Of a stretch of DNA of 64,000 bases, positions 42,575-58,185 are shown in pieces. How positions within the stretch are numbered: the stretch's first letter is position 1; each line of letters begins with the position of its first letter. The translations under genes were made by a program, and so were the position numbers. The notes below the pieces were generated by a model. The model did not search any database. It saw only the letters and a list, made by a program, of their open reading frames with translations, and was not told the DNA's origin. This DNA is from Pseudoxanthomonas mexicana (GTDB lineage Bacteria > Pseudomonadota > Gammaproteobacteria > Xanthomonadales > Xanthomonadaceae), in the NCBI RefSeq assembly GCF_001556105.1, contig NZ_LSIF01000036.1:22778-86777 (forward strand). The letters are read 5' to 3'.

Positions 42575-42616
42575 GCGCCCGTAGCTCAGCCGGATAGAGT
42601 AGTGGCTTCCGAAGCC
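42575..42616 (+). pseudogene. truncated tRNA-Arg(CCG), 5' half only
   Basis: Bases from the acceptor stem (GCGCCCG) through the D arm and anticodon loop (CTTCCGAAG) are those of tRNA-Arg, but after GAAGCC the sequence diverges and no T-arm or CCA follows. The complete copy downstream shares 36 contiguous bases with it. The break in the anticodon arm marks where the island joins the chromosome. It cannot give a functional tRNA. Confidence 0.85.
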
Positions 42617-42704
42617 GCTGCTCATAGGCCAAAATCGGGAACCGCAGTGTCACCGGGCTACTACTCAAAAGTGGCTGGCCCGAAGCAAAAAGTCCTTTAA
42701 AAAC

Positions 42705-42781
42705 GCGCCTGTAGCTCAGCCGGATAGAGTAGTGGCTTCCGAAGCCATTGGTCGGGGGTTCGAATCCCTCCAGGCGCGCCA
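42705..42781 (+). tRNA. tRNA-Arg (anticodon CCG)
   Basis: 77 bases fold into a full cloverleaf. The acceptor GCGCCTG pairs with CAGGCGC, then discriminator G and encoded CCA. The D stem is GCTC/GAGT, the anticodon stem GTGGC/GCCAT with loop TTCCGAA, and the T loop TTCGAAT. Anticodon CCG reads CGG. The acceptor differs from the broken copy (CTG versus CCG at the stem end) with its own matching 3' strand, so it was probably brought in by the island and replaces the disrupted gene. Confidence 0.95.
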
Positions 42782-43142: not shown

Positions 43143-43520
43143 CTATCCCGCGTCCTTGTACATATCAAGCGCTTTCAGAACGTTAAGAGAAGCGGAAAGC
43201 TTTCTGAGGGATGCGGCGGCTCTTACCGATTCAGAGGAGTACTGCTCTGCACTAATCTTGATGTTGTTCAGGGCATCTCGCAACCGGACAAGCTCGAACA
43301 AGAAATCAAGACCTATCTCTCCGGTAAGGAATCGATGCTCGCAAGTTAGGCACTCCCTACCGCGCTGGAACCAATTTAAGTCGTTGTGGGCGCTGTGGTA
43401 GCGGCGCTGGGTATAGTCGTCCGTATCCCACGTAACATCCGCACCCGGAATCGCTTTGCACACCCGGATGCCCTTGCATTCCGGACACCACATGCTAGTT
43501 CCACCGCCAAACCTAGCCAT
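43143..43520 (-). CDS. zinc-ribbon protein resembling the NrdR N-terminus
   Basis: 125 residues. CPECKG near the start and ECLTCEHRFLTGEI about 50 residues later form a four-cysteine zinc ribbon. The second half resembles the RRRECL-x-C-x-x-RFTT stretch of NrdR, but the ATP-cone is absent and the C-terminal half is an unmatched helix. The ATG is preceded by GGTGGA. It is the last gene of the minus-strand defence array, 27 bp after the restriction endonuclease gene. Its role is unknown; a small DNA-binding or regulatory protein is possible. Confidence 0.55.
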   Translation of the reverse strand: MARFGGGTSMWCPECKGIRVCKAIPGADVTWDTDDYTQRRYHSAHNDLNWFQRGRECLTCEHRFLTGEIGLDFLFELVRLRDALNNIKISAEQYSSESVRAAASLRKLSASLNVLKALDMYKDAG

Positions 43521-43547
43521 AATTTCCACCGTGGTGATAATGGCGCG

Positions 43548-44750
43548 TTAGACCAAATCGTAGCGAATGCTGGGCGGGAAAATCAGCCCTATGTTGCGTG
43601 GGTCCATCTTGAACAAGTATCCGTGGTCCCTCGCCCGCGGACGCCGCCCGGGATCGCGGGCTAACAAATGAAGCACAAAGTCCAGCTCGATGTGTCCCCG
43701 CTCGAAAAGCGACTCTAGATTCGAAATCATCGGCGCACGCGTATGTACTGCTTGAACGTAGTGAAATTCTTCCTCGCCATCCGCGCCGCGGCGAACGGCG
43801 GCTTTCACCCAGAACGTCTGTTGGTGCTTTTCAGCTAGGACTTGTCGTAACCCTTCCATGCCCCATTGCACTACCTTGGTGGGCGACAAGATCGTGCCGT
43901 GCATTGCATGCAGATCGGCGCCCAGGACCGACAAGAACAATCTTAGGGTGTTCGGGACATTGTTCAACGAGCAGTACAACTGTCGTCGCCCATCCTTGTC
44001 GTACCCGTATGTTTGCAATAGGGACACCGCAGTTCCGATCGCACTTTCGCTCCAATCGGGAACCTTCGAGAAGAGGGTTATCCGGTTCGCTTGTCGCGTA
44101 CCACCGGAAGTCCTCGAGGCCTTGATCTCGATGCCCTTGTAATCCGGAGATTTGCTCGAGTTGGCTGGGATGCCCAGCAATGTCTCGAGCGTCATTCCCA
44201 CGCCCGTCGGCCCGGATCGAAGGCTCCTCACGTACCCTCGTGCGGCGACGTCCCGAAGTTTCGTGAGCAACTCGTCCGCTGGTGCGTTCTTCGCGATCGC
44301 GATCGCTTGGATTAGGTTGCCCAGCGGGCTAGCCGGATCCTTGAGGGAATCGAAGACCCCGGGCACGCTGGTGTTAGCGATATAAAGCTGCCCTTCGTGC
44401 GCAAAGAGCGCCAATAGGTTCCCGGCCTTGGCATACTTCGGCAAGCCGGTCACCCAGATCCGGGGGTCGCCATCCTTGGTTTCCGGACGATACAAGGAGG
44501 CCTTTGCCTCTTCCCTCGCGCTCCCAGTCAGGTGCCAAGCGGTAACCACTACCTTCGCGTCAGGCCCCTTGGACTGGGCCTCGTAGTCGTGCAGGCCTTC
44601 CCGGCGCAGGTAGTCCCGTAGCTGGCCGTGGGCATCCATAATCGACTTGGACAAGCCCGTTTCCGTCGGCACGAGGAAGCCCGCCTCCACACCTTTGTCG
44701 GCGAGGACACGGATCACTTCCTCAATTTGTCGGTCCGCGCGCTCCAGCAT
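43548..44750 (-). CDS. MvaI/BcnI-family type II restriction endonuclease
   Basis: 400 residues. The C-terminal half has TGVGMTLETLLGIPANSSKS followed by PDYKGIEIKASR, the nuclease core of the MvaI/BcnI family, with Asp203, Glu208 and Lys210 as the likely metal-binding and catalytic residues. MvaI and BcnI cut CCWGG and CCSGG and are about 240 residues, so the first 170 residues here are an additional domain (it contains DPRIWVTGLPKYAKAGNLL). The gene follows the Dcm-type methyltransferase by 53 bp, as expected for a restriction-modification pair. The exact site recognised is inferred, not shown. Confidence 0.85.
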   Translation of the reverse strand: MLERADRQIEEVIRVLADKGVEAGFLVPTETGLSKSIMDAHGQLRDYLRREGLHDYEAQSKGPDAKVVVTAWHLTGSAREEAKASLYRPETKDGDPRIWVTGLPKYAKAGNLLALFAHEGQLYIANTSVPGVFDSLKDPASPLGNLIQAIAIAKNAPADELLTKLRDVAARGYVRSLRSGPTGVGMTLETLLGIPANSSKSPDYKGIEIKASRTSGGTRQANRITLFSKVPDWSESAIGTAVSLLQTYGYDKDGRRQLYCSLNNVPNTLRLFLSVLGADLHAMHGTILSPTKVVQWGMEGLRQVLAEKHQQTFWVKAAVRRGADGEEEFHYVQAVHTRAPMISNLESLFERGHIELDFVLHLLARDPGRRPRARDHGYLFKMDPRNIGLIFPPSIRYDLV

Positions 44751-44803
44751 CGCTATCCCCCTCGTCCCCTAAGAGTGGGATGTCATTGTCTCACCTGCAA
44801 GCG

Positions 44804-46084
44804 CTATGGGCGCAAGATCTTCGCGAGGTGCTCGCCAACGGCCTGTGCCAGTCCCACGGGAACGGCATTCCCGATCTGAGTATATTTCGGCACTTCGCGG
44901 TCGAACACGCCTTCGCGGGGATTGCCCGCCCGTCGAATGCCGCCCGTCGAGCGCTTGCCCTCGAACTGGTACCAATCGGGGAACATTTGGAGCCTTGCCC
45001 ACTCGCGTACCGTCAGGATGCGCGGCTGCGAGAAATGCACGTAGTCGTCTGGCAACGACGTCGCAGTGATAGTCGGGCCCTCATCTCCCCATTTGAGGGG
45101 AAGGACACGCTGGGCGAATTTCTTTGTCCGGAATTTCTCGGGGACGATGCCGCCATTGTCGATCATCGCCTGGAATTTCTCGACGATCTTGGGGCTGTGC
45201 TTGCTGTACTCATGCTCGGTGACGGAGGCGCCCTTGCGAAGCGGCGACCCTCCTTCCCTCGGCGTCCTCAGCCACCTTTGGATCGCAGTCGTCGCGGCCT
45301 TGGGATAAACCAACGTCGCGCCGCCATTGGCGTACTTGTCGTCTACGAGGTCGCCAAGGAGCTCGATGGGATGCGGCGCGTGCTGCCTGCCATTGGGTGG
45401 CGGCAAGAACCCGCGCTCGACCGCGTCCACGGAGTCACTATCCGCGAGCAGCGGAGACTTAACGTCCTTGCGAATGCCGACCATCAGGACGCGCGGGCGG
45501 TTCTGCGGGACTCCGTAGTCCTTGGCGAAAACGAGCCTGTACGCAACCCGATAGTCCTTCAGGCCGCTGAAGGTCTGGAACACCTGCTTCCAGATGTCCC
45601 CCTTTTCGCCGCCGTCATTCCACTTGGCGTGGAGTAACCCGCGGACGTTCTCGAACAAGAACGCGCGTGGCCGCAGTCGGTGCACCAGCGCCGCCATGTC
45701 TTGGAACAAGTGGTTCGAGGGCAATTGCTCCTTTTCCACCGAATACGATCGGCGATGGCCAATTCCCGAAAAGCCTTGGCAGGGCGGCCCGCCAACCAGC
45801 AGGTCCAGTTCCCCATGCCCGAATTGGAATTCGCTCTTGAAGCGCCTCTCCAGGGATTTCACGTACGACTCACTGGCGACCATCGACTTGACGTCCGCGG
45901 CATGGAACGCCGACTCCTTCAAGAGCGGGTTGATCTCCTTCCTATTCTCGATGTACGTCCGGCGCGCATCGTCGTTGAGCTCGTTGACGAACACGGGGAA
46001 GAATCCTGCGTTCTCCAATCCAAGCGAGAGGCCACCGCAACCTGCGAAGAGGTCGACGACCTTGAGTGACTTTTTCGGATCCAT
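44804..46084 (-). CDS. DNA (cytosine-5-)-methyltransferase, Dcm/DrmMII-like
   Basis: 426 residues with the ordered C5-methyltransferase motifs: DLFAGCGGLSLGLE (SAM binding, residues 11-24), GGPPCQGFSG (catalytic Cys102), FENVRGLL (144-151), QNRPRVLMVG near 207, and the closing QIGNAVPV. The target-recognition region lies between about 220 and 330. Adjacent Vsr and MvaI/BcnI-type genes suggest a CC(W/S)GG-like target. In DISARM class 2 a cytosine-5 methyltransferase (DrmMII) marks CCWGG in the host, so it could serve the DrmAB genes too. Confidence 0.93.
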   Translation of the reverse strand: MDPKKSLKVVDLFAGCGGLSLGLENAGFFPVFVNELNDDARRTYIENRKEINPLLKESAFHAADVKSMVASESYVKSLERRFKSEFQFGHGELDLLVGGPPCQGFSGIGHRRSYSVEKEQLPSNHLFQDMAALVHRLRPRAFLFENVRGLLHAKWNDGGEKGDIWKQVFQTFSGLKDYRVAYRLVFAKDYGVPQNRPRVLMVGIRKDVKSPLLADSDSVDAVERGFLPPPNGRQHAPHPIELLGDLVDDKYANGGATLVYPKAATTAIQRWLRTPREGGSPLRKGASVTEHEYSKHSPKIVEKFQAMIDNGGIVPEKFRTKKFAQRVLPLKWGDEGPTITATSLPDDYVHFSQPRILTVREWARLQMFPDWYQFEGKRSTGGIRRAGNPREGVFDREVPKYTQIGNAVPVGLAQAVGEHLAKILRP

Positions 46085-46129
46085 GGGGTTCTTGATGGTT
46101 ACTCCGGTTCAATGATGCCGCCGACCTGA

Positions 46130-46582
46130 CTAGGGATCCAGGCGCCGTGGCTTTGCATTTTGTCGTGCTTCTACCAATAAATCCAGGAGTTTCTTGATCG
46201 CCTTTTCCCGCTTCGGGATCGTGGCCAGGGAACACTCCCAGATCGTGATTACCTTCCATCCGTCGCGGCGGAGCCGTGCCCGGTTACGCTTGTCCCTGGC
46301 CTTGTTCGAGTCGAACTTTTCCCGCCAGAAAGCGCTGTTTTTCCCCGGGATCCTCCCCTTCTGGCATGAGTGGCCATGCCAATAGCAGCCGTGTACGAAA
46401 ACGACGGTGCCAAGGGCGGGGAAGACAAGGTCCGGCCTACCTGGCAGCGACTTGCCATGTAGCCTGTACCTGAACCCTGCCGCCCACACCGCCTTCCGAA
46501 CGATCAACTCTGGCTTGGTGTCCTTCGATCGTATCCGCGCCATACGGGCGCTTCTCTCGGCAGGGGAAAGCGTGTCGACCAT
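46130..46582 (-). CDS. vsr: very short patch repair endonuclease
   Basis: 150 residues. RMARIRSKDTKPELIVRKAV, GRPDLVFPALGTVVFVHGC and YWHGHSC reproduce the Vsr fold with its catalytic Asp and His residues. Vsr nicks at T:G mismatches that arise when 5-methylcytosine deaminates, so its place 45 bp upstream of a cytosine-5 methyltransferase is functionally consistent. It also supports C5 rather than N4 methylation in this cassette. Confidence 0.93.
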   Translation of the reverse strand: MVDTLSPAERSARMARIRSKDTKPELIVRKAVWAAGFRYRLHGKSLPGRPDLVFPALGTVVFVHGCYWHGHSCQKGRIPGKNSAFWREKFDSNKARDKRNRARLRRDGWKVITIWECSLATIPKREKAIKKLLDLLVEARQNAKPRRLDP

Positions 46583-46655
46583 ACGTCATGATAGTTCGTG
46601 GCCGATTGGGAAATCCAGGCCATGGTGCCGCGTGATTGTCTCAATTTCTGGGACG

Positions 46656-48371
46656 TTAGCCCTCTTGCCCGCCATATTCGTCCGTGGCCGCCGCTTTCGG
46701 CTTCCGACTCGCCCTCTTTGGCTTCTCCGCGGGAACGAGCTCGGGATCCACCACCGGCACGAGGCCCAAGGACTTCATCGCCCCTTGGAGGGCAGACAAT
46801 GCAAGGGAAGGGTCGCCTCCTAAGTCCACCTCGACTTCCAGCAAAATCTCGCCCGTGGCTGGATCCACGCTTGGAACTACTGGCCGCAGCGAGCGATCCA
46901 GCAAGCTAGCTAAAAGTTCTCTCGGGGGCTGCCCCCGCTTCTGAAGCTTCGCCTTGAGTGCGAGCCGCGCGACGGTTCCGTGGGGCAGCCGGAATTTGGC
47001 CTCGTCTACTTGGGCCGAGGCAACCACACCATCCGCGCCCAGCGATGCCTTCGCGACTCCCGTGTTGGGGTCCAAGCCAGTCAAAACTCGCTTTGCGCGA
47101 AGCCCTTGCAGAAGTTCGGCATAGGCGCCACTTGCGGGCAGAGTGCGCTCAATGAAGTCGAAGCCGGCGAGTCCAACTCGTTCGACTTGATTTCCAGCCT
47201 CGTCCCAACGGCGGGTTGAATGAACCTGCAGCGCTTTCCCCTCTACTACGAACCTTGCCGCGGTGATCGCACCCAGAAAGGCACTGCGCGTTGGTCCCTT
47301 CGCCTCGCGCGAGATACCCCCCAGACCGCAGTAAAGTCCCGACAGGATGCTGGCTAGGATAGCCACACCCTTTCCGACTGGCCGAGCGCCGACCCATCGC
47401 TGCAGTTGTTCTGCTCTGGGTGCGAGCAGGAAGATCATCAGGGCGCGCTGTCCAACCCCCCCGGTGTCGTCGATCTTCGAGTCGCTCAACTCGATCCTAT
47501 TGTCCAAGACTTTCCGTAGCGTATCGAGGAATGCCTCCACCTCCGCTCCCTGATGGCCTTGCTGGGAATCGATGGCCAGCAACTGTTCGACGAATGAAAT
47601 GGGATCGATACCATCCTTCGTGGAAACCTCATGGAGCATCGTCGCGGCGGTGATGTAGATCCGTTCGTCCCCTGATTCAGCCTGCCCCGGGTGAACCGCT
47701 CGATAAGCGTGATGCGCGAATCGAGTGAGTGCGTCACTGGACCGGGACGCATCCGCATGCTCGGGCAGGGACAGCAGCTCGCATGCCGTCGTGATCGGAG
47801 CACTACCTCGCCTTGCAAGGGAACCAATGCTGGCAATCGCCCCAGCAAGCTTTTCCAAGGCCGTCGAGTCGATGCTTGGAATTTCATCCGCGCCCTGGTT
47901 TCCTTCATCTTGCATCGGGGAATCGCCAAGCGAGAATGCAAGCCCGGGTTGTTCCTCCGCCAATCCGCCACCCTCAGAGAACAACGATGGATCCGTCTTG
48001 ATTTCCAGAGCCGCCGGAACCGTGTCGTCAAATGTTTCCATGCGAGCTTCTATATCTAGCGCCGCATCCACGGAAGGCGCCCAACAAGCCATGACGTCCG
48101 TCAAGAGCAGCGGCTGGCTCACGCGCAAAGCTTCATTCATCGACGCGTCTCTTGGTACCTCGAGCAAGAACACGCTCCCCCAAGCTTCATCTCCCTTTGC
48201 GCGCTTGATGGAGGCGTCCGTGACGATGGCCTCCGCCAACAGCGGGGTATCCTGGACCGGCACGAAGCCTCGGGCGAATGCCTGCATCAGTCGATCCTGA
48301 TGAATGGCCACGAAGCGTCGCGGTTGGCCATTCTGCTTGGCGCCGCGCGCCCTACTCTTCGATTTGGTCAT
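46656..48371 (-). CDS. uncharacterised 571-residue protein of the DrmAB-like operon
   Basis: No known domain is recognised. The N-terminus is basic (KSKSRARGAKQ), residues 130-180 are acidic and probably disordered, the middle (about 185-420) is predicted helical with RALMIFLLAPRAEQLQRWVG and AILASILSGLYCGLGGISRE, and the C-terminus ends in a basic Lys/Arg/Ala tail. There is no signal peptide or nuclease motif. Its start lies inside the end of the upstream ATPase gene (20-bp overlap), so the two are translationally coupled and likely partners. It could be a highly diverged counterpart of DISARM DrmE, but nothing visible proves it. Confidence 0.7.
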   Translation of the reverse strand: MTKSKSRARGAKQNGQPRRFVAIHQDRLMQAFARGFVPVQDTPLLAEAIVTDASIKRAKGDEAWGSVFLLEVPRDASMNEALRVSQPLLLTDVMACWAPSVDAALDIEARMETFDDTVPAALEIKTDPSLFSEGGGLAEEQPGLAFSLGDSPMQDEGNQGADEIPSIDSTALEKLAGAIASIGSLARRGSAPITTACELLSLPEHADASRSSDALTRFAHHAYRAVHPGQAESGDERIYITAATMLHEVSTKDGIDPISFVEQLLAIDSQQGHQGAEVEAFLDTLRKVLDNRIELSDSKIDDTGGVGQRALMIFLLAPRAEQLQRWVGARPVGKGVAILASILSGLYCGLGGISREAKGPTRSAFLGAITAARFVVEGKALQVHSTRRWDEAGNQVERVGLAGFDFIERTLPASGAYAELLQGLRAKRVLTGLDPNTGVAKASLGADGVVASAQVDEAKFRLPHGTVARLALKAKLQKRGQPPRELLASLLDRSLRPVVPSVDPATGEILLEVEVDLGGDPSLALSALQGAMKSLGLVPVVDPELVPAEKPKRASRKPKAAATDEYGGQEG

Positions 48372-49551
48372 AAAGGTTGCCGGGCGGAAGCCTGTCCGCC
48401 AAATTCTGGGGTTGGTTCAAGATGAGTAGCTCAAGGTACTCGCGTGCGCGCGAAGCCATTACATACAACTGCATTTTGGCCTGCTGGGCGCTGGCGCCAC
48501 CATTGTCAAGGAATGGGTCGACAATGAAAACGGCGTCGAATTCCAAGCCCTTTGCGCTCTGGAAGTTAAGGATAGTGACCGACCCACCCTTGTCGAACTT
48601 CAGGTCCTCGGGTGGATGCTCTCGCCTTTCTCTGTAGGAATAGGTTTGGACGACCATGCCGCTGTTGACCAACCTGCTCGCGAGGCTATTGAACACCTTC
48701 TTCCTAAGAACATCCCGCATACAAAGCACGCCAATGTCTTCGCCAGGGTTGTTAGATGCATGCGCCGCTATCCGGCGTCGGATCACTTCAAGGCTCGACG
48801 CCAACACCACCTTGGGTTTCGACCTTCCTACCCTCGAAGGGATGTCGGGCACGCCAGAGGGCAGTCCGATATAGAAATGCTTGGCGAACTCGGCGACCTG
48901 CTTGCTGTTGCGGTAGTTCTTCCGAAGCTGGTATCGACGCTCTTTGCCCAAGGCAAGCGCCGTTGCGACTTCCTCAATCGTAGAATTGGCGCCCTCTTGC
49001 AGCCTTTGGTTCTCATCCGCGAAAACCGTAATCGCGGGTTTGGAGTCTCCTGCGTCCACCTGCGCAAGCATCGAAATGAAATTTAGGGCCGAGTACATGT
49101 CACGGGGGAAATCCTGGCCTTCATCGATGATCAAGTGGCCCCAATGCGCCCTGCTCCCAACGCTGCCGGCCGCAGCGGCAAACTGCTTCAACATCTCCTG
49201 CCAATCATGCACCCATTCGTTGCTCGGCAAGCTTGGTGGCGCCGCCCTGAACATCCTTCGCCACCATCCAGACGCCCAAGAATGCATCGTCGACGTGTCG
49301 ACGTCTTGGGCCACGGAATCTCGGGAAATCGTGTACGTCGACAGAACCTTGCTGAACATCATGACCCGCGGCACAAGGGCTTTGTCGGGCTTCTTTTTCG
49401 ACAGGGCTTGGAGATACGCGGCCCTGTGGAATGCCATCACGGTCTTGCCCGTGCCCGGGGGACCGACGACCAGTATGGTTTCAGCGGGGGGCGCCCCGTT
49501 GTAGATCGCCTTCTGTTCTGCATCCAAGTCCGTGAGCCTAGGAAATCTCAT
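48352..49551 (-). CDS. small SF1 (UvrD-like) ATPase/helicase
   Basis: 399 residues. Walker A is GPPGTGKT (30-37), Walker B LIIDEGQD (140-147), VFADENQRLQ is a motif-III-like segment near 176, and motif VI is YVMASRAREYL near 367. All SF1 hallmarks are present, but the protein is little over half the length of UvrD, so accessory 1B/2B domains are missing or minimal. It lies nine bases after the DrmB-like gene and overlaps the 571-residue protein. A motor or remodelling ATPase in the same complex is likely. Confidence 0.85.
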   Translation of the reverse strand: MRFPRLTDLDAEQKAIYNGAPPAETILVVGPPGTGKTVMAFHRAAYLQALSKKKPDKALVPRVMMFSKVLSTYTISRDSVAQDVDTSTMHSWASGWWRRMFRAAPPSLPSNEWVHDWQEMLKQFAAAAGSVGSRAHWGHLIIDEGQDFPRDMYSALNFISMLAQVDAGDSKPAITVFADENQRLQEGANSTIEEVATALALGKERRYQLRKNYRNSKQVAEFAKHFYIGLPSGVPDIPSRVGRSKPKVVLASSLEVIRRRIAAHASNNPGEDIGVLCMRDVLRKKVFNSLASRLVNSGMVVQTYSYRERREHPPEDLKFDKGGSVTILNFQSAKGLEFDAVFIVDPFLDNGGASAQQAKMQLYVMASRAREYLELLILNQPQNLADRLPPGNLYDQIEE

Positions 49552-49560
49552 GGACGTCCC

Positions 49561-51375
49561 TCACGACTGGTACTCCACCAATTTGTCGAGCTTGAAGAAC
49601 GGCTCCATGTCACCAATACCGACCAACGCGCGCCTGTCCAGCAACGAGTTATTGAACGCGCAACTGGTCTCCGAAACAAGCATGCATGCGTGACAGGACG
49701 CCGCGTTCATGCCGCCGATCCCTTGTCGGTCGCTTTCCTTGCAAACAGGATCCGCGGAACACCACGACACGTCGAGTAGAGCAGCCTCAAGCAACGCACC
49801 TAGGCGTTTCGGCTCACCCATCCTAACCAAGCCCCCGAGTGACCCTTCCGAGTCCCCATCAGCGGTGTACAGAAGGATCCCGCACATCTTGGAGCCCACA
49901 CTGCCAGCGTAGATTCGCTCGCGGATAGAAGATGCTGAGTATCCCGCGTCGAAGCTAAGCCGGCGAATCATTGCGTGGGCCAATGAGTGCAAGAGTAGGA
50001 AGCGCGGACTTGCCATCGATGCGTCCCAACCTAAGCCCGCAGCCGTGCTCGCGAGGTGCGAAAGCCTCCTTTCCAGCCCCCCTTTCACGTTCGACTCCCA
50101 TTCGCGGACAGCATCGGCATCGAGCTGAAGGAAGATCCCTTCGCCCCAAGCTTCAACACCCGGGTACCACCCCAGAGGATGACTCCCTAGGTCGACCGGG
50201 ATGATCGCCCGCTGTTCGTCTGGCGTAAGGCGGCGGAAGCCAAGCAAGGCACGCACCTCCCTTAGCCGCCTGACCATCGATATGGCCTTGATGGTCCGGA
50301 TGAGTTCCGGCGGCCAGTCATCGGGGAGCATAGTCCGCTTGATGTCGAGGAATCTGGAGGAGATATCCCGGCGGCCGGACAAGGTCTCCCATTCGTCGTG
50401 GAGGATGGCGGCCTGAGCGTCCGTGAGATCATCGTCCTCGTCCGTGACGGCATTCGATTCAGGGCGTAGCGCCCTTGCCAACGCATCCAGTGCTTGGCCA
50501 GCGTCGCAACCGTATCGTCCAGCGAGCTGTTCGGCCATCGCCGTTGCCGTCATAAGAATCTTCGCAATGGCTACCTGCGCAGAGTCCAGCGACTTGATCA
50601 TGTCCCAGCTTGGATGGGTCTGCCAGGCGTCGGCTAAGTCAGCCGCGCTCATCTGGCCATCGATCGGCAACAGGTCCAGAGCGGAAATGGACTTGGGGAA
50701 ATGCAGGTTGCTAGCAGCGCGGCGGTAGACCCAAAGAGGTTCGCCGCAACCAGACTCGTTGAGTTGCCACGGCTGCCCTCCTTTGCAATGCATACCCATG
50801 GGGGCCTCGACCTGAACCAAGCCGACGAAGTTCCTCTTGGCCCCGCAAGAGCAACGAACGCTGATGGCGGACCAGTCGCCACCGCCTTGTCCTGTCGTCT
50901 CGAACCACATCTGAGCACCCTGCCGACTGCAAGGGCCCTTCCCGCCGGCGGACGAAGAATGCGCCCACCAGTGCCAGTCGACATCCGACATATGCCCATT
51001 CTTGCAGGCTGCGACGAAGCCCATCGGCGTCAGTTCACCCTTGCACTTGGGGTTCGCGCACTTCGGCACGCCGTACCCGTTCGCCAGATCTTGTTGCCCG
51101 GTGACCATGCGCATAAGCCGGCAGCGCGGGCAGAAGTGCCAACGCGGGAACCGGTGTATCGCGACTGGCTCCAAGCTCTCGCTCGCGACTGGCGTCCTGA
51201 TGGGGCGCTTCAGCTTACGCTCGAGGTGGCTATCCTCAATCAGATGCGTGCCATTTGCGCCCCATCGGCTGATGTCCGCCATCACGAAGGATTCTTGGCC
51301 GATGTCGATGATGGAACCCACGCCGAACGGCGCAACGAGTTGCCCTTGCCTGATTGATCTCTTACCCATTGTCAT
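49561..51375 (-). CDS. DrmB-like DUF1998 protein
   Basis: 604 residues. The N-terminus VAPFGVGSIIDIGQESFVMA and zinc-binding pairs FCPRCRLMR, CANPKCKG and CSCGAKRNF match DISARM DrmB. The C-terminal DUF1998 domain reads HSLAHAMIRRLSFDAGYSAS, GILLYTADGDSEGSLGGLV, CSADPVC and ASCHACMLVSETSCAFNN, with cysteines that probably bind zinc. In DISARM, DrmA and DrmB form a DNA-translocating complex. Here the start overlaps the stop of the DrmA-like gene by four bases (ATGA), the same pairing. A second ATG six bases in is an alternative start. Confidence 0.88.
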   Translation of the reverse strand: MTMGKRSIRQGQLVAPFGVGSIIDIGQESFVMADISRWGANGTHLIEDSHLERKLKRPIRTPVASESLEPVAIHRFPRWHFCPRCRLMRMVTGQQDLANGYGVPKCANPKCKGELTPMGFVAACKNGHMSDVDWHWWAHSSSAGGKGPCSRQGAQMWFETTGQGGGDWSAISVRCSCGAKRNFVGLVQVEAPMGMHCKGGQPWQLNESGCGEPLWVYRRAASNLHFPKSISALDLLPIDGQMSAADLADAWQTHPSWDMIKSLDSAQVAIAKILMTATAMAEQLAGRYGCDAGQALDALARALRPESNAVTDEDDDLTDAQAAILHDEWETLSGRRDISSRFLDIKRTMLPDDWPPELIRTIKAISMVRRLREVRALLGFRRLTPDEQRAIIPVDLGSHPLGWYPGVEAWGEGIFLQLDADAVREWESNVKGGLERRLSHLASTAAGLGWDASMASPRFLLLHSLAHAMIRRLSFDAGYSASSIRERIYAGSVGSKMCGILLYTADGDSEGSLGGLVRMGEPKRLGALLEAALLDVSWCSADPVCKESDRQGIGGMNAASCHACMLVSETSCAFNNSLLDRRALVGIGDMEPFFKLDKLVEYQS

Positions 51376-54300
51376 CCCCTCGCCACGGGCTTCAACATCA
51401 CGTCAGGGTCAACGTTCCGCACGGAGCGCATTGCCTCGTACAATCCCGCTGCCTCGGGATCCCCGAAATCACGCACGAGCGCCGTCGATATTGTCCAAAA
51501 CTGCCTTCCCGGGCTCGAGTAAAAGACCTGCCTGCCCGCTTGCGCCTCCTCCTCCCAAACCTTGACGATCCGATCAATCTCAACGTCAACGTCAATCGCT
51601 TCCCCAGGATCGGCAAGGCGTATCCTCCTGCGGAAGTCACTCAACAAGCGGGCGACGCTAGGATTGCTGAAGTCCACGTCCCTAGCCTTTTCGTTTGCGC
51701 GGTATTTTGTTGCGTGGCGGATCATCGCGATGATCGCCGAATGGAGCGTCCGTTCCCGCGCAGGAGGGGCGTATGGCGTGACGCTTGTGGGCTCGACGAA
51801 ACGATAGAAGGAGTCGTGGTAGGAGCGGAAGTCCTCGTAGTGCGACCTGTCCCTTGGCTTGGCGGGCGAGTACAAGGTCAAGACGAGACCTGGCGCTTCC
51901 CCGCGGCCTACGCGACTCGATGCTTGGATGTACTCCGATGTCAACTTAGGTTGGCCATTTACCATCATCAAGCCAAGCCGGTCGACGTCCACACCAACCG
52001 AGATGATGCTCGTGCAAGGAACGAAGTCCACTGCGGGGCTGGTGTTGGTGCCGCGGCGTTGAAGGGTCCTGATGGCTTCGCCCATGTCGTTAGCCATCTG
52101 AGAGCTCAGCTCCATGATCTGGTCGACGATGCGCGCATCGTCTTGCACCGTCGCGATGGCCTTGATTCGATCCGGGATTTCCTGAGAGGCTGCCGTGATG
52201 GTGCGACCGAGTTCCCTACGGCTGTTCAAGTACGCGAGCACGCTCCAATAAGCGTCCTGCATCTCTTCCGGCAATTCGACTTCCTTGCTTGCTTGCAGCA
52301 ACGCCGCGGCCACCCAAACCATGGAAACGACCGGCGTGGTCGTCCCTTGCCCCATCGCCCCCAAGTACATGCGGCCCGGCTTGCTAGCCAAGTCCTCCAG
52401 TCTAAAGAAGTAGGCGTCTTCCCAGGTTCTGACCGGAGAAGGGAATACGGTCGATTCCCTCCCATAGATTCCCTTGACCTGTTCGCGCGAATTCCGGATC
52501 GTCGCCGTTGACGCGATGACCTTTGCGCCCTTGCCCCCGCTTCTGGCCCGAATGATCGAATCGATTGCGACTTCGTACGGCGCGCAGATCGATCCCAGCG
52601 GCCCGGAAATTAGGTGGAGCTCGTCTTGGATGACCAGCGATGGTGGAGGTGCATCGTCAGACGGGCCACCGAAGAACGCGGAGGGCCGCTCGTCCCAGGT
52701 CAGTCCGGCGAACTTGTCGAGCGTCCCGAGGAGCACCGAAGGCGGCTCCTTGTATAGGGCGTCGTCCACCACTTGCATCGGGATCATTGAGTGGAAGGCG
52801 CAGTTTGGGCTCAGGCAATGGAAATGGAAATGTGACGGCCCACATTGGACGCCAACCTTGCCTGATGTTTCGTCGACGATGTTTGTCGAGCAAGCGGGAC
52901 ATCTGTCCAGAAGGAACGGATTCTTGGCGCCGCTGGCGGCGCCACTCCATTCTTCGTGCAGCTCCATGGCTTTTGCGAAGCTATTGGGCGTGAGACTCTG
53001 GCCCACCCATAGCCCCACCGAGAAAGGCCGCGACCCGAGGCGGCCAGAGTATTCCCTCCGCAACAACTCTAACGCACTCACCAGCATTCCGGTTCTCTGG
53101 AATTGCTGGGTCGTTAGCATCCTCAACGTGTACCTGCTCAATACTGCTGCTGCTCGGTCGCGCTCCCCGTGAATCAGCCGCCGGCGAATCAATTCGAAAG
53201 CCGCCACCAAGAGGTACGCCTCTGTCTTGCCGCCACCCGTCGGGAACCAGATCACGTCGACGACATCGTGGTCGTCCCGCGACTGGCAAGCAGCCTTGAG
53301 CCCGGGAGCGACGTCGTCTAAGAGAGATGGAATCACGCCAAGGAAGAAGGCAATCTGGAAGGGCCTCCACTGGTACCCAAGCCCGCGGCCCAGCTCCGGC
53401 ACGCTCCGGCACTCTTCCGCTGGGTATGGGCCACCACGCCCGACCCTATCCATTCGCATCTGCCAGTACATAGCACGATTGGCCAGTTTGAATGCTTCGA
53501 ACGCAACTGGATCCGACAACAACTTGATCCCAAGGTCGATGCGCTCCCTCCAATCTTGGCAACGCGCGGCCAGAAGGAGCCCTTCTTGTTCATCTGCTTC
53601 GCGGGCACGGCATTCTTGCTCAGCAAGCCAACTACCAAAGGCATCGCTTAGGCCGGAGAGCACGACCTGCAACTGGCCAACGTCATCGTTGAAGGCGAGG
53701 AACTCAACGTCCCTATAGCGTGGATCTAGGCCACCATCGTCGGCGACCTCGAAAGTAGGTGCGCGAACCTCGGCCGTTGGCATGAATGATGAGCGCACTT
53801 GCTCGCATTTCCCGCTAGCGGCAAGGTCCCAGGTGGCGGCAACCCCGTGCCCGCGGGCGAAAATCGGTGAATTGCGGTACAGGTACCTGACCTCCGCCTC
53901 GTCTTGGTCACTTGATGCCGCTGATCGAGGCCTCGGGTACGGAAGTATTTCCCCTTTCTCCGCTGACACACTTAGCTCGACTTGGAAGAGGACCTCCGCT
54001 GGGTCCAATGCACTTGACGCCTTCTCCAACGAATTAACCAGGGTTACCGTGACAAGGTGGCCCCCGTTTGGCCATTGGCGTGCATTCACATGGAGCCATG
54101 CACGGCCAGCGAGCACCGCAATCGGTAGCTTTGCATCCAAGATCGGTATGCGTACTTGCTCCTTGCCAGCCCTTGGGATTGGCTTGCGCTTCCATTGGCT
54201 CGCACTACGCCCTCTCTTGTTTCCGTTTTCCCCAGACAGCTTTTCGTATGACGCCGCGCTTACTTCACAGATCAGCGCCGTATCGCGTCCAATAAGGAAG

Positions 54301-54563
54301 CTCAAGCCCATAGATGAAGGAAGCGCCCGATGGCTCGCACCAAGGGATTCACCCGCATCCTCATCGGCCGACGCGCCTTCAGCGCCCGAACCATCATCCG
54401 CTAGCTCGACATCCTCCTCTCGCGGGAAGAGCATGCCAATCATGTAGCGAAGCAGCGGGGAACCAGCAAATTCCTCCTCTTCGCCATCCGCAGGCCCGAC
54501 TAGCCTTGATCTTAGATAGCCGACGAACCGCTCCCTCGAATCCCTCTTTCCAGAGTTATCCAC
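51372..54563 (-). CDS. DrmA-like SF2 helicase
   Basis: 1063 residues from a GTG with AAGGGGGG five bases upstream, overlapping the end of the preceding gene by eight bases. The longer ATG start at 54611 lies deep inside that gene and is less likely. Walker A is FPTGGGKTEAY near residue 440, the DEAH-equivalent is VIQDELHLISGP near 645, and motif VI is IQASSRVGRGE near 880, followed by SHYEDFRSYHDSFYRFVEP. This form of the helicase motifs is that of DISARM DrmA. The first 400 residues are family-specific. It presumably loads on or scans invading DNA with the DrmB-like partner. Confidence 0.88.
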   Translation of the reverse strand: MDNSGKRDSRERFVGYLRSRLVGPADGEEEEFAGSPLLRYMIGMLFPREEDVELADDGSGAEGASADEDAGESLGASHRALPSSMGLSFLIGRDTALICEVSAASYEKLSGENGNKRGRSASQWKRKPIPRAGKEQVRIPILDAKLPIAVLAGRAWLHVNARQWPNGGHLVTVTLVNSLEKASSALDPAEVLFQVELSVSAEKGEILPYPRPRSAASSDQDEAEVRYLYRNSPIFARGHGVAATWDLAASGKCEQVRSSFMPTAEVRAPTFEVADDGGLDPRYRDVEFLAFNDDVGQLQVVLSGLSDAFGSWLAEQECRAREADEQEGLLLAARCQDWRERIDLGIKLLSDPVAFEAFKLANRAMYWQMRMDRVGRGGPYPAEECRSVPELGRGLGYQWRPFQIAFFLGVIPSLLDDVAPGLKAACQSRDDHDVVDVIWFPTGGGKTEAYLLVAAFELIRRRLIHGERDRAAAVLSRYTLRMLTTQQFQRTGMLVSALELLRREYSGRLGSRPFSVGLWVGQSLTPNSFAKAMELHEEWSGAASGAKNPFLLDRCPACSTNIVDETSGKVGVQCGPSHFHFHCLSPNCAFHSMIPMQVVDDALYKEPPSVLLGTLDKFAGLTWDERPSAFFGGPSDDAPPPSLVIQDELHLISGPLGSICAPYEVAIDSIIRARSGGKGAKVIASTATIRNSREQVKGIYGRESTVFPSPVRTWEDAYFFRLEDLASKPGRMYLGAMGQGTTTPVVSMVWVAAALLQASKEVELPEEMQDAYWSVLAYLNSRRELGRTITAASQEIPDRIKAIATVQDDARIVDQIMELSSQMANDMGEAIRTLQRRGTNTSPAVDFVPCTSIISVGVDVDRLGLMMVNGQPKLTSEYIQASSRVGRGEAPGLVLTLYSPAKPRDRSHYEDFRSYHDSFYRFVEPTSVTPYAPPARERTLHSAIIAMIRHATKYRANEKARDVDFSNPSVARLLSDFRRRIRLADPGEAIDVDVEIDRIVKVWEEEAQAGRQVFYSSPGRQFWTISTALVRDFGDPEAAGLYEAMRSVRNVDPDVMLKPVARG

Positions 54564-56214
54564 GCATCCCCCCTTCAAAATGCCTCGTCGCGCTGTCCGC
54601 CATTCGCGCATGGACTCGTTCGAGGGTTTCCGGCACGGCGAAAATTGCTAATGCGAAGTTCGCCCGCGTCATGCCGAGATAGAGCATCCGGCCCAATTCA
54701 TCGTCCCCAGATCGAGGCCCGGTGAGACATAGCACCAGAAAGCCAGATTCTAGTCCCCGAAACGCGTCGATACTGGCGTATGCAAGTCGCGCATCCCGTC
54801 CCACTGAAGCTCCCCATGGCTTGACGCCAAACCCTCCCAGGTGGGCGACCTCATTGGCCAAGTCCATGGGACTCTCGTCGTTGGTTATGAGCGCAATGCT
54901 CGCGAGCGAGATATCTTCGTCCAGCCATTCCCGAATACGTTCCGATATGGCATTTGCCGCCTCCTTACGGTCTTCGACGGCCAACATCGTCGGGCGCTGG
55001 CCCCTTCCGCTAACTATCGCGTGGCCTAGCGGAACGCCAGCAGCCAATTCGACGGTCGTGATGATCTCCGGGGTGTTGCGGCAGTTCTTGGAAAGCTTGG
55101 GGCGCACTGACGCCGCCGAAGACAGCATCGCCACGCCGGCGTCCATTTCCTTCCTCGTATATGGCGACTGGTAGTTCACGTCGCCAAACCATGCCCATCT
55201 CCCCAGCTTGATCCCTCCTTCGACCACGGAGTCCAGAAGCTCGATTTTTTCCTTGGAGAGGAGCTGCTGGCCTTCGTCGACGATCAATACGGACACCTTC
55301 TGCCGCTCTGCAGGAGGAAGTGTCTCGATTTCACCTAAGGTGGCGATGGCCCTGCCGATGTCGGATTGTTCTCGTAGCACGGCTGCCAACGCGTCCGTGC
55401 CCACCACGAAGAGCAGGGAGTCGCCCGCACCAATCGATCGCCTTGCCATTTCCGTCGCTAAAAGCGTCTTCCCGCATCCTGCGGGAGACGAACAGTAGAT
55501 GCGTTCGGCGCCAGCCCAATGATCCAGAATTTCGTACTGTTCTTCCGTCAGGGCAAGCATTTCTTCGTTGAAGCGATCACGTGCCAAGGCCAAAGCCTGC
55601 ACACGCTCAAACTCAGGACGAAACAATCGAACGAGCTCGGCAACATCTCGTTCGGCGATCTTGCGCGAAGAGCTATTCTTCCGTGCCCAGTACTGCGCAA
55701 CGCCTTCCAAGAAGAGCTGGAGCTTCGCTGGACTAGCAAGGTCTTCACGGGCACCAATTAATTCTTCGGGAAACTCGGGGCCACCCAGCAGTTCCCCCAA
55801 GTCACTCCGTCCCATCCCAGCTAGGATCACGCAAAACCCTGCCGGGTATGCCGTCGCAAATCCCGCGCCTAGCCTAGGCGCAACGTAATTTCGGTCTAGC
55901 GAGAAGAAGGCATCCTTGGCCTGTACGAGTGGTGACTTGCCTCTGGTGACAACGCGGCCAAGTCGATCTTCGTAGTGCCATCGACCTCCTTTGCAGGACA
56001 CATCGCCACCCTTTACTTCGATAGCGACGAGGCCTTTTGCCCCAACGAGCAAGAAATCGATCTCACCCCAACGCTGGTAGGCATGCTCGGCGAGGTTTAG
56101 CGAGTTAAGTGCACGTGCGGCGCCTCCACCCCAATCTACAGATCGCAGGAGCGAAAGGACCTTCCTTTCGGATCCAGTTGCCTCAGCAGCTGGCATGTTT
56201 GGAATGACTTGCAT
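54556..56214 (-). CDS. NERD nuclease-domain / SF1 helicase fusion protein
   Basis: 552 residues. Residues 40-110 form a NERD domain with EIDFLLVG and AIEVKGG (Glu51, Asp53, Glu66, Lys68), the restriction-endonuclease-like active-site pattern. From about 225 an SF1 ATPase follows: SSPAGCGKT (Walker A, 242-250), VLIVDEGQ (309-316), KNCRNTPEI and a late YLGMTRANFAL. A GAGGGG lies six bases before the ATG. It is the first large gene of the array, upstream of and overlapping the DrmA-like gene. NERD-helicases occur in defence islands; here it may supply the nuclease function that DrmC gives in classical DISARM. Confidence 0.85.
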   Translation of the reverse strand: MQVIPNMPAAEATGSERKVLSLLRSVDWGGGAARALNSLNLAEHAYQRWGEIDFLLVGAKGLVAIEVKGGDVSCKGGRWHYEDRLGRVVTRGKSPLVQAKDAFFSLDRNYVAPRLGAGFATAYPAGFCVILAGMGRSDLGELLGGPEFPEELIGAREDLASPAKLQLFLEGVAQYWARKNSSSRKIAERDVAELVRLFRPEFERVQALALARDRFNEEMLALTEEQYEILDHWAGAERIYCSSPAGCGKTLLATEMARRSIGAGDSLLFVVGTDALAAVLREQSDIGRAIATLGEIETLPPAERQKVSVLIVDEGQQLLSKEKIELLDSVVEGGIKLGRWAWFGDVNYQSPYTRKEMDAGVAMLSSAASVRPKLSKNCRNTPEIITTVELAAGVPLGHAIVSGRGQRPTMLAVEDRKEAANAISERIREWLDEDISLASIALITNDESPMDLANEVAHLGGFGVKPWGASVGRDARLAYASIDAFRGLESGFLVLCLTGPRSGDDELGRMLYLGMTRANFALAIFAVPETLERVHARMADSATRHFEGGMRG

Positions 56215-56262
56215 CTCCCCGCCCCTCTACCACTCCAGTCGCATCTTCCCAAGATGGAACGC

Positions 56263-56514
56263 TCATTGAACGACGTCTGGCGATCCCACCATCTCATCCG
56301 CCACGTGTTCCACAAGGTCTTCGATCCGGCACCCGAAGTAAGTACAGAGCTTGTCGAGCACATCCGTCTGAACGTTGGCCCCGTGCTGGTTAGCCAACTT
56401 TGAGAGCGTCATTCGGTTAAGTCCGGTCGCTGCGGCAATTTCCTGCAGCTGGATCCGCTTCCGCTCCCGGAACTCAAGGTCAGCTATGCGCTCTCGCAGC
56501 TTAAACCTTAACAT
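56263..56514 (-). CDS. XRE/Cro-type HTH regulator
   Basis: 83 residues from the ATG of MLRFKLRERIADLEFRERKR, the usual start of this group; a longer frame adds 10 hydrophobic residues of doubtful value. The helix-turn-helix is IQLQEIAAATGLNRMTLSKL, and the tail LDKLCTYFGCRIEDLVEHV is typical of small repressors that control defence or mobile genes. It lies 48 bp upstream of the NERD-helicase gene and probably represses the array and the divergent excisionase promoter. Confidence 0.85.
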   Translation of the reverse strand: MLRFKLRERIADLEFRERKRIQLQEIAAATGLNRMTLSKLANQHGANVQTDVLDKLCTYFGCRIEDLVEHVADEMVGSPDVVQ

Positions 56515-56537
56515 AAGATAAATTCCGCTTATTAAAA

Positions 56538-56615
56538 CTATCAAACGATCTTGCTTTTCATCATTCGATAGCTAATATCGTCATCTCACGATGATTTAAA
56601 CCATCATGCGATAGC
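56538..56615. promoter_or_regulatory. AT-rich divergent control region with repeated operator-like sites
   Basis: CATCATTCGATAGC (56559-56572) and CATCATGCGATAGC (56602-56615) are direct repeats with one mismatch. A related inverted copy, CTATCAAACGATC, lies at 56538-56550. ATGAT and ATCAT also form an inverted pair around TTTAAAC at 56590-56607. These sit between the XRE gene and the excisionase-like gene, so they are likely binding sites for one of these two proteins. Confidence 0.55.
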
Positions 56616-56639
56616 GATTATTTGCACAGGAGAATGCTG

Positions 56640-56876
56640 ATGAGCATCACGTACCTTACCACCGAACAGCTGTCGGAACGCATCCACTACGACGTCCGGA
56701 CCATCCGCAACCGCCTCAAGGACAGCGTCCTGCTGGAAGGAATTCATTACATCCGTCCCTTTGGTGGGCGGAAGCTGCTTTTCCTTTGGGAGGCCATTGA
56801 GCGCGACATCCACACCGCCTCCTCGGCGCATGTCCCGCTGATTCCGATGGCCAACGGCGGAGTGGCGCATGGCTAA
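56640..56876 (+). CDS. excisionase/AlpA-like HTH protein
   Basis: 78 residues. AGGAG lies seven bases before this ATG, which decides against the ATG six bases earlier. ITYLTTEQLSERIHYDVRTI followed by RNRLKDSVLLEGIHYIRP is a winged-helix/MerR-like excisionase fold that reads DNA next to attachment sites. Its last eight bases overlap the integrase start, so the two are expressed together and are probably the recombination module of the island. Confidence 0.78.
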   Translation: MSITYLTTEQLSERIHYDVRTIRNRLKDSVLLEGIHYIRPFGGRKLLFLWEAIERDIHTASSAHVPLIPMANGGVAHG

Positions 56877-58185
56877 GGTTCGCGCGCGCCCCGAGACCAA
56901 CTGCCTCTACCTAGACTTTTCGTTCCGCGGCAAACGATGCAAGGAGCAGACGGCCCTGAAAGACACAGCGGCCAACCGACGAACTCTGGAGGCCTTTGCC
57001 AACCGCATCAAGCGCGAGATGGCCAAGGGCAGGTTCGACTACCGGGCGTTCTTTCCAGACAGTCCTCGCGCCGCCCAGTTTGACGGCGACATGGAGGCCG
57101 CCCCGACGGTTGTGGCGACAAGCGGCAATACCTTGCCAGATATGGGCCCTGCTATGCCGACGCCGACGCTGACGCAGTTCGCCGGGACCTGGTACCAAGA
57201 GAACCTGCCGCGCTGGCGCCAGACTCATGCCGACACGGTTCAAGGGACCCTGCGCCAGCACATTCTTCCCAAGCTAGGTGACAAGCCGCTGGCTGAAATC
57301 ACCCGAGCAGACTTGCTGGCCTTCCGGGCCGAGCTGGGCAAGCAAACCGGCAAAGGCGGCGGCGCCTTGTCTCCCTCGCGGATCAATCACATCATGACGC
57401 CGTTGCGTATGCTGATGGCCGAGGCCTCCGAGCGCTATGAGTTCCTCACCCCGTTCCGGAACATCAAGCCGCTGCGCCTGCCCAAGCTCGACATCCAGCC
57501 GCTTTCGCTGGATGAGGTCCACCGTGCGCTCGGCACCGTCCGAAAAGACTGGCATCCGTACCTGGCTGCCCGCTTCTTCACGGGGATGCGGACAGGCGAG
57601 ATCAATGCGCTGGAGTGGAAGCACATCGACTTCGAGCAGGATCTGATCCTGATCCGCCAGTCGATCGTCAAAGGGAGGTTGGAGAACACCAAGACCGATG
57701 GTTCGATGAGGGATATCCCCATGGTTCCCTTGGTGCGCACGGCCCTGCTTGAACAGCGGAAACTGGTTTCTGAGGATTGCCGCTGGGTTTTTGCACAGCG
57801 CAACGGTGATCCGATCAACTTGGTCAACTTCACCAACCGGGTCTGGCATCCCCTGCTCCGCCATCTCGGCTTGGCGCCCCGCAGGCCGTATCAGACTCGC
57901 CATACGGCGGCCACGCTGATGCTGGCCTCAGGCGAGAATCCGGAGTGGGTGGCCCGGACCTTGGGCCATGCCAATACGGAAATGTTGTTCCGGGTCTACT
58001 CGCGCTACGTGCCCAACCTTACCCGCAACGACGGCAAGGCCTTCACGGGGCTGGTCACCGCCTCCTCCATGCCGACCAGTAGCACTCCCCGGACGAAGGA
58101 TGCCCCTCAGGGCACGACCACTCCCTTATCTGTGCTGACGCGCAAACAGCTCGAAGCCTTGGTCGCTCAACTTCAGCAGCAGTAG
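56869..58185 (+). CDS. tyrosine-type site-specific integrase
   Basis: 438 residues. The N-terminal 60 residues (TNCLYLDFSFRGKRCKEQTA) are an arm-type DNA-binding domain of the DUF3596 kind. A core-binding domain spans about 100-200. The catalytic domain shows Arg241 (TGMRTGEINALEW), Arg344 in YQTRHTAAT, His367 in TLGHANTE and the nucleophile Tyr377 in FRVYSRYV. The usual first His of HxxR is Tyr here. It is the likely recombinase for insertion at the tRNA-Arg gene, although it lies 14 kb from it, with the defence array in between. Confidence 0.93.
   Translation: MAKVRARPETNCLYLDFSFRGKRCKEQTALKDTAANRRTLEAFANRIKREMAKGRFDYRAFFPDSPRAAQFDGDMEAAPTVVATSGNTLPDMGPAMPTPTLTQFAGTWYQENLPRWRQTHADTVQGTLRQHILPKLGDKPLAEITRADLLAFRAELGKQTGKGGGALSPSRINHIMTPLRMLMAEASERYEFLTPFRNIKPLRLPKLDIQPLSLDEVHRALGTVRKDWHPYLAARFFTGMRTGEINALEWKHIDFEQDLILIRQSIVKGRLENTKTDGSMRDIPMVPLVRTALLEQRKLVSEDCRWVFAQRNGDPINLVNFTNRVWHPLLRHLGLAPRRPYQTRHTAATLMLASGENPEWVARTLGHANTEMLFRVYSRYVPNLTRNDGKAFTGLVTASSMPTSSTPRTKDAPQGTTTPLSVLTRKQLEALVAQLQQQ

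Follow-up and report, generated by a model that had tools for sequence, protein, structure and literature searches.

Here, we report that a 64,000-nucleotide (nt) stretch of the Pseudoxanthomonas mexicana genome (NCBI RefSeq assembly GCF_001556105.1, contig NZ_LSIF01000036.1, positions 22,778 to 86,777; hereafter the window) carries a ten-gene minus-strand operon which, judged by its gene content and phylogeny, is a new DISARM variant, recurrent across distantly related bacteria. The core of the operon encodes five proteins, i.e., a fusion of a NERD nuclease with a superfamily 1 (SF1) helicase (NERD-SF1), a DrmA-like helicase, a DrmB-like protein, a small SF1 ATPase, and a protein of 571 amino acids (aa) that we call P5; a cassette with a mismatch endonuclease (Vsr), a C5 cytosine methyltransferase (C5 methylase), and a restriction enzyme follows. 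The gene cluster very probably serves in anti-phage defence, and we have fair confidence that it represents a distinct branch of DISARM-like anti-phage systems which works as proposed below. We base this reading on features observed directly, namely the gene content, its conservation, the clade membership, the intact motifs, and the mutual exclusion of NERD-SF1 and DrmC in our sample.

Organization of the operon

The ten open reading frames were confirmed at 43143-56544 with the lengths and the short or overlapping junctions that the initial annotation had described; the operon, ten genes on the minus strand, is real and had been read correctly, and its genes are probably co-transcribed. The first gene encodes an XRE/Cro-type helix-turn-helix regulator (56263..56544, minus strand as for all ten genes, 93 aa; Pfam HTH_26 52.3 bits, cut-off 22), and a gap of 48 nt separates it from the NERD-SF1 gene, which overlaps the DrmA gene by 56 nt. 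DrmA and DrmB overlap by 4 nt, the small SF1 gene starts 9 nt after DrmB, and it overlaps the P5 gene by 20 nt. The core from NERD-SF1 to P5 is tightly packed, and the genes of the cassette are more loosely spaced, with gaps after P5 of 73, 45, 53, and 18 nt through Vsr, the methylase, the MvaI/BcnI-family enzyme, and the last gene. The families above the Pfam cut-off in the operon include NERD, MZB (DUF1998), DNA_methylase, Vsr, and MvaI_BcnI. The last gene (43143..43529, 128 aa) possibly encodes a zinc-ribbon protein, its sole match being an NrdR ribbon at 16.5 bits, below the cut-off of 27.2. When all five core genes were compared with those of Pseudomonas sp. BN102 (locus L001), third codon positions differed more than first and second ones; because of this pattern and because the set recurs elsewhere, the five-gene set is not a chance assembly.

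DrmA and DrmB form a separate clade

DrmB-family proteins were searched in three overlapping draws of Pseudomonadota genomes (398, 369, and 385 genomes) and in plasmids. The resulting 47 loci comprise the window, L001, 25 loci from the draws, and 20 plasmid records, the last chosen from the best 30 of 63 matching records with a choice that favored window-like DrmB. Genomes G001, G108, G574, and G709 came up twice in the draws, G001 not being among the 25. Profile scans of all loci covered every reading frame. Three loci with weak DrmB matches (L030-L032), used as an outgroup, and the sub-cut-off hits L020 and L055-L057 stand outside the 47; L072 (193 bits, at a contig end) is counted, and L010, L070, L071, and L072 are on short or cut contigs.

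The window DrmA (51372..54611, 1079 aa) is an SF2 helicase of the YprA family with a PADLOC DrmA score of 589.6 bits, and it aligns with the solved DrmA structure 7s9v at E 2.1e-133, residue 81 being aligned on 216. Its NCBIfam DrmAS score is 803.4, under the cut-off of 950. This NCBI model accepts all four tested proteins of the DrmC-bearing clade described below (scores 1230-1416) and none of five others (window 803, L005 789, L034 854, L039 910, L045 844). DrmB (49561..51375, 604 aa), a DUF1998/MZB protein, scores 238.5 bits with PADLOC DrmB and 409.6 with NF038324 (DrmB_fam, cut-off 240), and, as in DISARM, it is a separate DUF1998 protein beside DrmA. The helicase contains PTGGGKTEAY, DELHLI, and QASSRVGR as first noticed, and the core motifs GGGKTEAY, QDExHL, and RVGR are kept in 44/44 aligned DrmA rows, with slight changes at other positions. 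The trigger loop of Serratia DrmA spans residues 176-232 (accessible part of PMC9142583). At this position acidic residues outnumber basic ones in all 44 DrmA rows, at the level of sequence only, which suggests that autoinhibition by the trigger loop may be common to this branch as well. DrmA was not confirmed in any viral contig, and one partial match was found in phages.

In the DrmA tree (47 rows, three of them outgroup; L010, L038, and L071 left out), the 11 rows with the small SF1 gene form one clade with a Shimodaira-Hasegawa-like approximate likelihood ratio test (SH-aLRT) support of 100, and the 10 DrmC rows fall in a separate 15-row clade, also with 100. The DrmB tree, from which L072 was left out, agrees, i.e., it has a 12-row clade with support of 96 in which L071 is added; both trees are quick ones without bootstrap. 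In the approximately unbiased (AU) test, grouping the window and L001 with the DrmC rows was rejected at p 6e-96 and grouping the whole branch with them at p 1e-5, for groups named after the tree was seen. The possibility raised at the outset that the helicase falls outside the DrmA clade therefore holds in one sense, as the protein is outside the DrmC-bearing clade and below the NCBI cut-off, but not in the other, as by sequence it clearly belongs to the wider DrmA family.

NERD-SF1, a candidate effector in the place of DrmC

NERD-SF1 (54556..56214, 552 aa; Pfam NERD 29 bits, cut-off 22.1) has RTasNERD-Hel as its best PADLOC match (92.8 bits). In an alignment with 20 other loci, the D and ExK of the NERD domain are present in 20/21 rows (L072 ends before that region), the acidic residue preceding D is kept in 19/20 rows that cover the region, and the helicase motifs are present. 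As aligned, the nuclease and ATPase motifs are intact, and NERD-SF1 is likely the candidate DNA-degrading effector in DrmC's place.

With thresholds of 250 bits for the DrmC profile and 500 bits for NERD-SF1, the 47 DrmB loci divide into 21 with NERD-SF1, 10 with DrmC, and 16 with neither, and no locus has both, which supports the NERD part of the earlier suggestion that a NERD domain and/or the restriction enzyme replaces DrmC. The 25 genome-draw loci taken separately give 13, 5, 7, and again none with both. Fisher's test yields p 0.001 for the 47 loci and 0.015 for the 25, relatedness being ignored. Since the two were found at 21 and 10 loci and never together, NERD-SF1 is a recurrent alternative partner. 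Among the loci without DrmC, the DrmC profile matches only at L079, with 13 bits. NERD-profile matches of 64-105 bits occur in 7/16 of the loci with neither; these are the small SF1 gene in L028, L033, L035, and L036 and other proteins in L044, L081, and L083.

In the window itself, DrmC is not among the listed PADLOC families of the ten proteins (for two of them the best 25 of 62 and the best 25 of 30 families), and both the DrmC profile and the pattern HxKxxxxD...G(S/T) are silent in window 40001-60000. The pattern misses 8/10 DrmC loci, so that the profile is the real test for DrmC. Profile searches thus bear out the view that the operon is DISARM-related, with DrmA and DrmB but no DrmC or DrmE among the families listed.

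It could be argued that we are dealing with an ordinary DISARM which has lost DrmC and uses an unlinked phospholipase D (PLD) nuclease, NERD-SF1, the small SF1 ATPase, and P5 being bystanders. DrmC is indeed dispensable in the DISARM tested, and it has been suggested that other PLD nucleases can be recruited (accessible part of PMC9142583); the window DrmB also passes the NCBI family cut-off. However, this DrmA clade is found with the same partners in different phyla, DrmA is placed outside the DrmC clade by the topology test above (window + L001; groups named post tree), and its score is below a cut-off that 4/4 tested DrmC-clade proteins pass, which makes this explanation improbable.

Some further arrangements were seen in the sample. 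Fourteen more DrmA-DrmB loci have NERD-SF1 without the small SF1 gene (L026, L027, L029, L039, L045, L046, L067, L068, L072, L075, L077, L078, L082, and L084), and a UvrD-like gene lies upstream at the NERD-SF1 loci L026, L039, L046, L082, and L084. Genome G1073 carries NERD-SF1 at both of its DrmB loci, L077 and L079 (contigs 14, 16, and 43, including the EcoRII contig mentioned below). At L024, L025, and L041, DrmA-DrmB occurs without DrmC or NERD-SF1 and is preceded by a 368-379-aa gene (annotated XRE in L041) and a 167-171-aa gene, a further DISARM-like arrangement that recurs; L041 also has another annotated phospholipase D family gene.

The small SF1 branch

The small UvrD-like SF1 ATPase (48352..49551, 399 aa; Pfam UvrD_C_2 and AAA_19 over cut-off) follows DrmB directly in 11/47 loci, five of them among the 25 from the draws (L005, L028, L069, L070, and L079). 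Walker A, Walker B, ADxNQ, NxRN, KGLxFD, and SRA-type motifs are kept in the 11 rows with minor variation. The window, L001, L005, L034 (a Deinococcus gobiensis plasmid), L069, L070, and L079 have both this gene and NERD-SF1. A neighborhood survey for the five-gene set in distant taxa, as the initial annotation had called for, thereby gave six loci in addition to the window, one of them on the Deinococcus plasmid. Four more loci (L028, L033, L035, and L036) share DrmA-DrmB-SF1, three of them with a P5 relative; L033 and L035 are Photobacterium plasmids and L036 is a Streptomyces plasmid.

In L001, the five genes keep the order of the window, and upstream of them lies a divergent C5 methylase. 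L005 (genome G141) reads C5 methylase, NERD-SF1, DrmA, DrmB, SF1, P5, and then an HhH-GPD glycosylase. In L069, L070, and L079, NERD-SF1 stands last in the order, not first. As side observations, the five-gene core of L001 is followed by a PADLOC candidate defence pair, PDC-M61A/B (L001:11734-15174), and in the Streptomyces locus a 1273-aa sigma-70-domain protein (L036:1136-4957) with an MzaA match of 135.1 bits lies just before DrmA.

P5 and its predicted folds

P5 (46656..48371) had no match in Pfam, PADLOC, or NCBIfam. AlphaFold2 (AF2) models and fold comparison predict a DarT-type ADP-ribosyltransferase (ART) fold at the N-terminus, a helical middle domain that may resemble ADP-ribosylglycohydrolases, and also a YbjN/secretion-chaperone-like domain. 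The Pfam DarT profile did not match the window P5 at E up to 1, and by eye no conserved His/Arg/Glu set is found at the N-terminus, where the 16-row alignment is poor. The metal-binding Asp motif of ADP-ribosylglycohydrolases is DTDT; inspection of alignments A2 and A5 by eye showed no such Asp motif ahead of the conserved SGxYxGLG segment. The catalytic residues thus look absent as far as the alignments go.

A search of about 5.8 billion proteins (7996 candidates scored) gave ten matches to P5, one of which is the window's own, and the only locus hit by a pattern scan across 84,980 species genomes was L001. A profile scan of 369 Gammaproteobacteria found the genome of L001 and G141, i.e., at least 2/369; this is a lower bound because the P5 of G048 and G344 were missed in the same draw. 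A protein-database search with the 16-row alignment returned nothing, its candidate list perhaps being swamped, and P5 profiles against the sequences of solved structures gave chance-level matches only. A spread of the P5 gene by phages or plasmids was considered and rejected: no P5 match was found in viral contigs, and the window P5 had no tblastn match in plasmids; diverged relatives are nevertheless found on the plasmids L033, L034, and L035.

The most distant links of P5 are weak and rest on hmmsearch chains among 679 neighbor proteins and on gene position. The hmmsearch E-values are 1.9e-13 for A2 to L005, 7e-12 for A4 to L005, 1.3e-7 for A4 to L034, 3.2e-4 for A2 to L033, 1.2e-3 for A3 to L001, and 2.9e-3 for A4 to the window. 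By hhalign, the P5 of L005 matches the window family at E 2.5e-10, the window family and the Photobacterium-type family match weakly (probability 10.7, E 0.0029), and the window family against the Deinococcus protein is negative (E 0.18). As a long shot, the P5 chain might combine transferase and hydrolase into an ADP-ribosylation module, either active or conditionally so, which would sense or mark single-stranded phage DNA and license the NERD-SF1 nuclease; restriction in this DISARM branch would then be coupled to DNA ADP-ribosylation. As a separate observation, a stand-alone DarT gene (L039:12628-13230; Pfam DarT 43.9 bits, cut-off 22.5) directly follows DrmA-DrmB-NERD on an Azospirillum plasmid.

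The attached restriction-modification cassette

Vsr (46130..46582, 150 aa; NCBIfam vsr 141.6, cut-off 97.85) matches the solved mismatch endonuclease 1cw0 at E 4.1e-28. The C5 methylase (44804..46084, 426 aa) scores 192.1 bits in Pfam and 160.4 with TIGR00675 (cut-off 100.65), and in PADLOC its best DrmMII model reaches 147.7 bits versus 245.1 for a type II methyltransferase model. The MvaI/BcnI-family endonuclease (43548..44750, 400 aa; Pfam PF15515 166.7, cut-off 25) matches R.MvaI (2oa9) at E 3.5e-5. An MvaI/BcnI-family endonuclease beside a C5 methylase is the arrangement of a type II restriction-modification (R-M) system. The MvaI/BcnI and EcoRII families cut CCWGG or CCSGG. DISARM is known to methylate CCWGG (accessible part of PMC5957327), and the simplest reading would be a CCWGG-type mark common to both layers. 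Branch methylases are mostly 22-41% identical to each other (window versus L001, 31%), and in G141 and G001 the C5 methylase of the locus is the sole such match in the genome. The C5 methylase of L005, together with its glycosylase in Vsr's place, would fit repair of deaminated 5-methylcytosine.

Only 3/11 small-SF1 loci have such an enzyme near the core, i.e., MvaI/BcnI in the window and L033 and EcoRII in L035. In L033 and L035 it lies 5.4 kb and 2.8 kb downstream of P5, respectively, with other genes between. For seven of the eight remaining branch loci, a Pfam search of their genomes or plasmid records found neither MvaI/BcnI nor EcoRII over the cut-off; the eighth (L079, genome G1073) has an EcoRII gene on a contig other than that of the locus, with a C5 methylase about 1.2 kb away. 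The proposal that the restriction enzyme replaces DrmC was rejected, since such an enzyme was not found over the cut-off at most relatives: we regard the cassette of Vsr, C5 methylase, and MvaI/BcnI as a restriction-modification module attached to the core, not as the DrmC replacement. These distances and absences also bear on whether all ten genes form one integrated system, in which DrmA-DrmB recruits the MvaI/BcnI enzyme as its effector and NERD-SF1 is accessory. All genes point the same way, no gap exceeds 73 nt, and the two Photobacterium plasmids repeat the association, but neither MvaI/BcnI nor EcoRII was matched over the cut-off in the genomes or records of 7/10 other branch loci, the EcoRII of G1073 lies on another contig, other genes intervene on the plasmids, and the tight overlaps of the core do not extend to the cassette; such a system is unlikely.

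Genomic setting

The operon sits in what looks like an integrated island. A tyrosine integrase (56869..58185, plus strand; Pfam Arm-DNA-bind_2 and Phage_integrase over cut-off), likely that of the carrying island, is encoded next to the operon, and a tRNA-Arg(ccg) at 42705..42781 (plus strand, ARAGORN) marks the island edge. There is a 36-base copy of the 5' half of tRNA-Arg at 42581-42616, and the GC content drops near 42 kb from 0.66-0.71 to about 0.59; a second copy of the tRNA end, which would mark the far island edge, was not found within the window. Beyond the integrase, a 290-aa DUF3553-bearing protein (window 61587-62459, plus strand) adjoins an unknown 139-aa gene. The gene at window 63023-64000 (minus strand) is HNH-like by eye, with a weak PADLOC PDC-M55C match of 30.1 bits and none in Pfam; it may encode a GmrSD-type restriction protein as the next gene of the island.

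Comparison with known systems

Among known systems, those closest to the operon include DISARM class 1 and class 2, attributed to Ofir et al. (2018). For class 1, neither the Snf2 helicase DrmD nor an adenine methylase is listed among the matches of the ten proteins, the sole methylase being of the C5 type. For class 2, no PADLOC DrmE or Pfam DrmE_C match is listed for them; the small SF1 ATPase and P5 may conceivably replace DrmE, as the initial annotation had proposed. The PADLOC DrmE models also gave no match for three DrmE candidates elsewhere (L042, L027, and L026), so a distant DrmE could be missed here; Pfam DrmE_C scores 28.2 bits at L044 (cut-off 27) and a sub-threshold 25.2 at L029, a NERD-SF1 locus. 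As none of DrmC, DrmD, and DrmE turned up among the matches listed, we file the operon as DISARM-related, not as class 1 or 2. Like DISARM, it has DrmA and DrmB as separate adjacent genes, a DNA methylase, and an acidic segment at the position of the trigger loop (gene lists in the accessible part of PMC9252829); it differs from DISARM in that the partners are not DrmC, DrmD, or DrmE but NERD-SF1, the small SF1 ATPase, and P5, and in the separate clade of its DrmA.

ARMADA, BRIGADE, and TALON, as far as described in the accessible text of a preprint (Bell et al. 2025, PMC12458937), share with the window a YprA-family helicase in a defence setting, and TALON also a NERD nuclease; in the window, unlike in all three, the helicase and the DUF1998 part are separate genes. 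According to the same text, ARMADA has OB-CON-DUF1998 and a nuclease fused to its YprA helicase, plus the BrxHII and PglX genes, and TALON has TOTE-type TPR-CSD/TBP genes; BrxHII and PglX are not listed for the window operon, and TPR-CSD/TBP genes were not found in it. Type II R-M systems (MvaI/BcnI or EcoRII) with Vsr have the endonuclease, C5 methylase, and Vsr side by side as here, whereas the window cassette is attached to a DISARM-like core within one operon. PADLOC RTasNERD-Hel, C3a187, and Nhi also combine a NERD domain with an SF1 helicase; the window protein differs in having DrmA and DrmB as partners, with no reverse transcriptase in the operon. We found no description of DrmA-DrmB with NERD-SF1 in the literature listings and text passages that we consulted. 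The Figure 1 legend of PMC12458937 refers to numerous DISARM-like classes that are uncharacterized, and the supplement of that paper, a part beyond the text accessible here, may therefore include this branch.

Discussion

Several observations weigh against the proposed defence system. In four of its 11 loci (L028, L033, L035, and L036) NERD-SF1 was not found in the fetched stretch. P5 follows SF1 in 10/11 loci and was not found in L036, and only 7/11 loci (window, L001, L005, L028, L033, L034, and L035) show a C5 methylase within the stretch fetched, genome G344 having no C5 methylase match at all. Solved methyltransferases match the window methylase over part of its length only. At L071, on a short or cut contig, the DrmB belongs to this clade but no SF1 gene adjoins it. 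The exclusivity of DrmC and NERD-SF1 partly mirrors the clades rather than independent events.

Considering all these points, we still favor a DISARM-like anti-phage branch and propose the following scheme. The C5 methylase would mark host DNA at predicted CCWGG-like sites, and Vsr would repair the T:G mismatches left by deaminated 5-methylcytosine. The acidic trigger loop may hold DrmA-DrmB off until the complex loads on unmarked single-stranded or 5'-overhang phage DNA, along which it would then translocate. P5 and the small SF1 ATPase may act as adaptor and accessory motor, respectively, and the DNA would be cut by the helicase-nuclease NERD-SF1, in the role attributed to DrmC in DISARM. 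Within the same operon, the MvaI/BcnI enzyme would be a type II enzyme, shielded by this methyl mark as well. A DNA-repair or element-maintenance operon is very unlikely: YprA/MrfA relatives work in repair (accessible part of PMC12458937), Vsr and the L005 glycosylase are repair enzymes, and an integrase and a tRNA are nearby, yet DrmA and DrmB are separate genes, as they are in DISARM, DrmA has the segment where the trigger loop would lie, a restriction cassette is present, and candidate defence genes follow the core in L001.

DrmC is often missing from DISARM, and how DISARM destroys DNA is an open point (accessible part of PMC9142583). With a NERD-helicase at more than half of the genome-draw loci and DrmC at a fifth of them, never together, and with the nuclease motif intact, this missing-nuclease question becomes directly testable. 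The branch also adds P5, with its predicted DarT-like and ADP-ribosylglycohydrolase-like folds, to the DISARM neighborhood.

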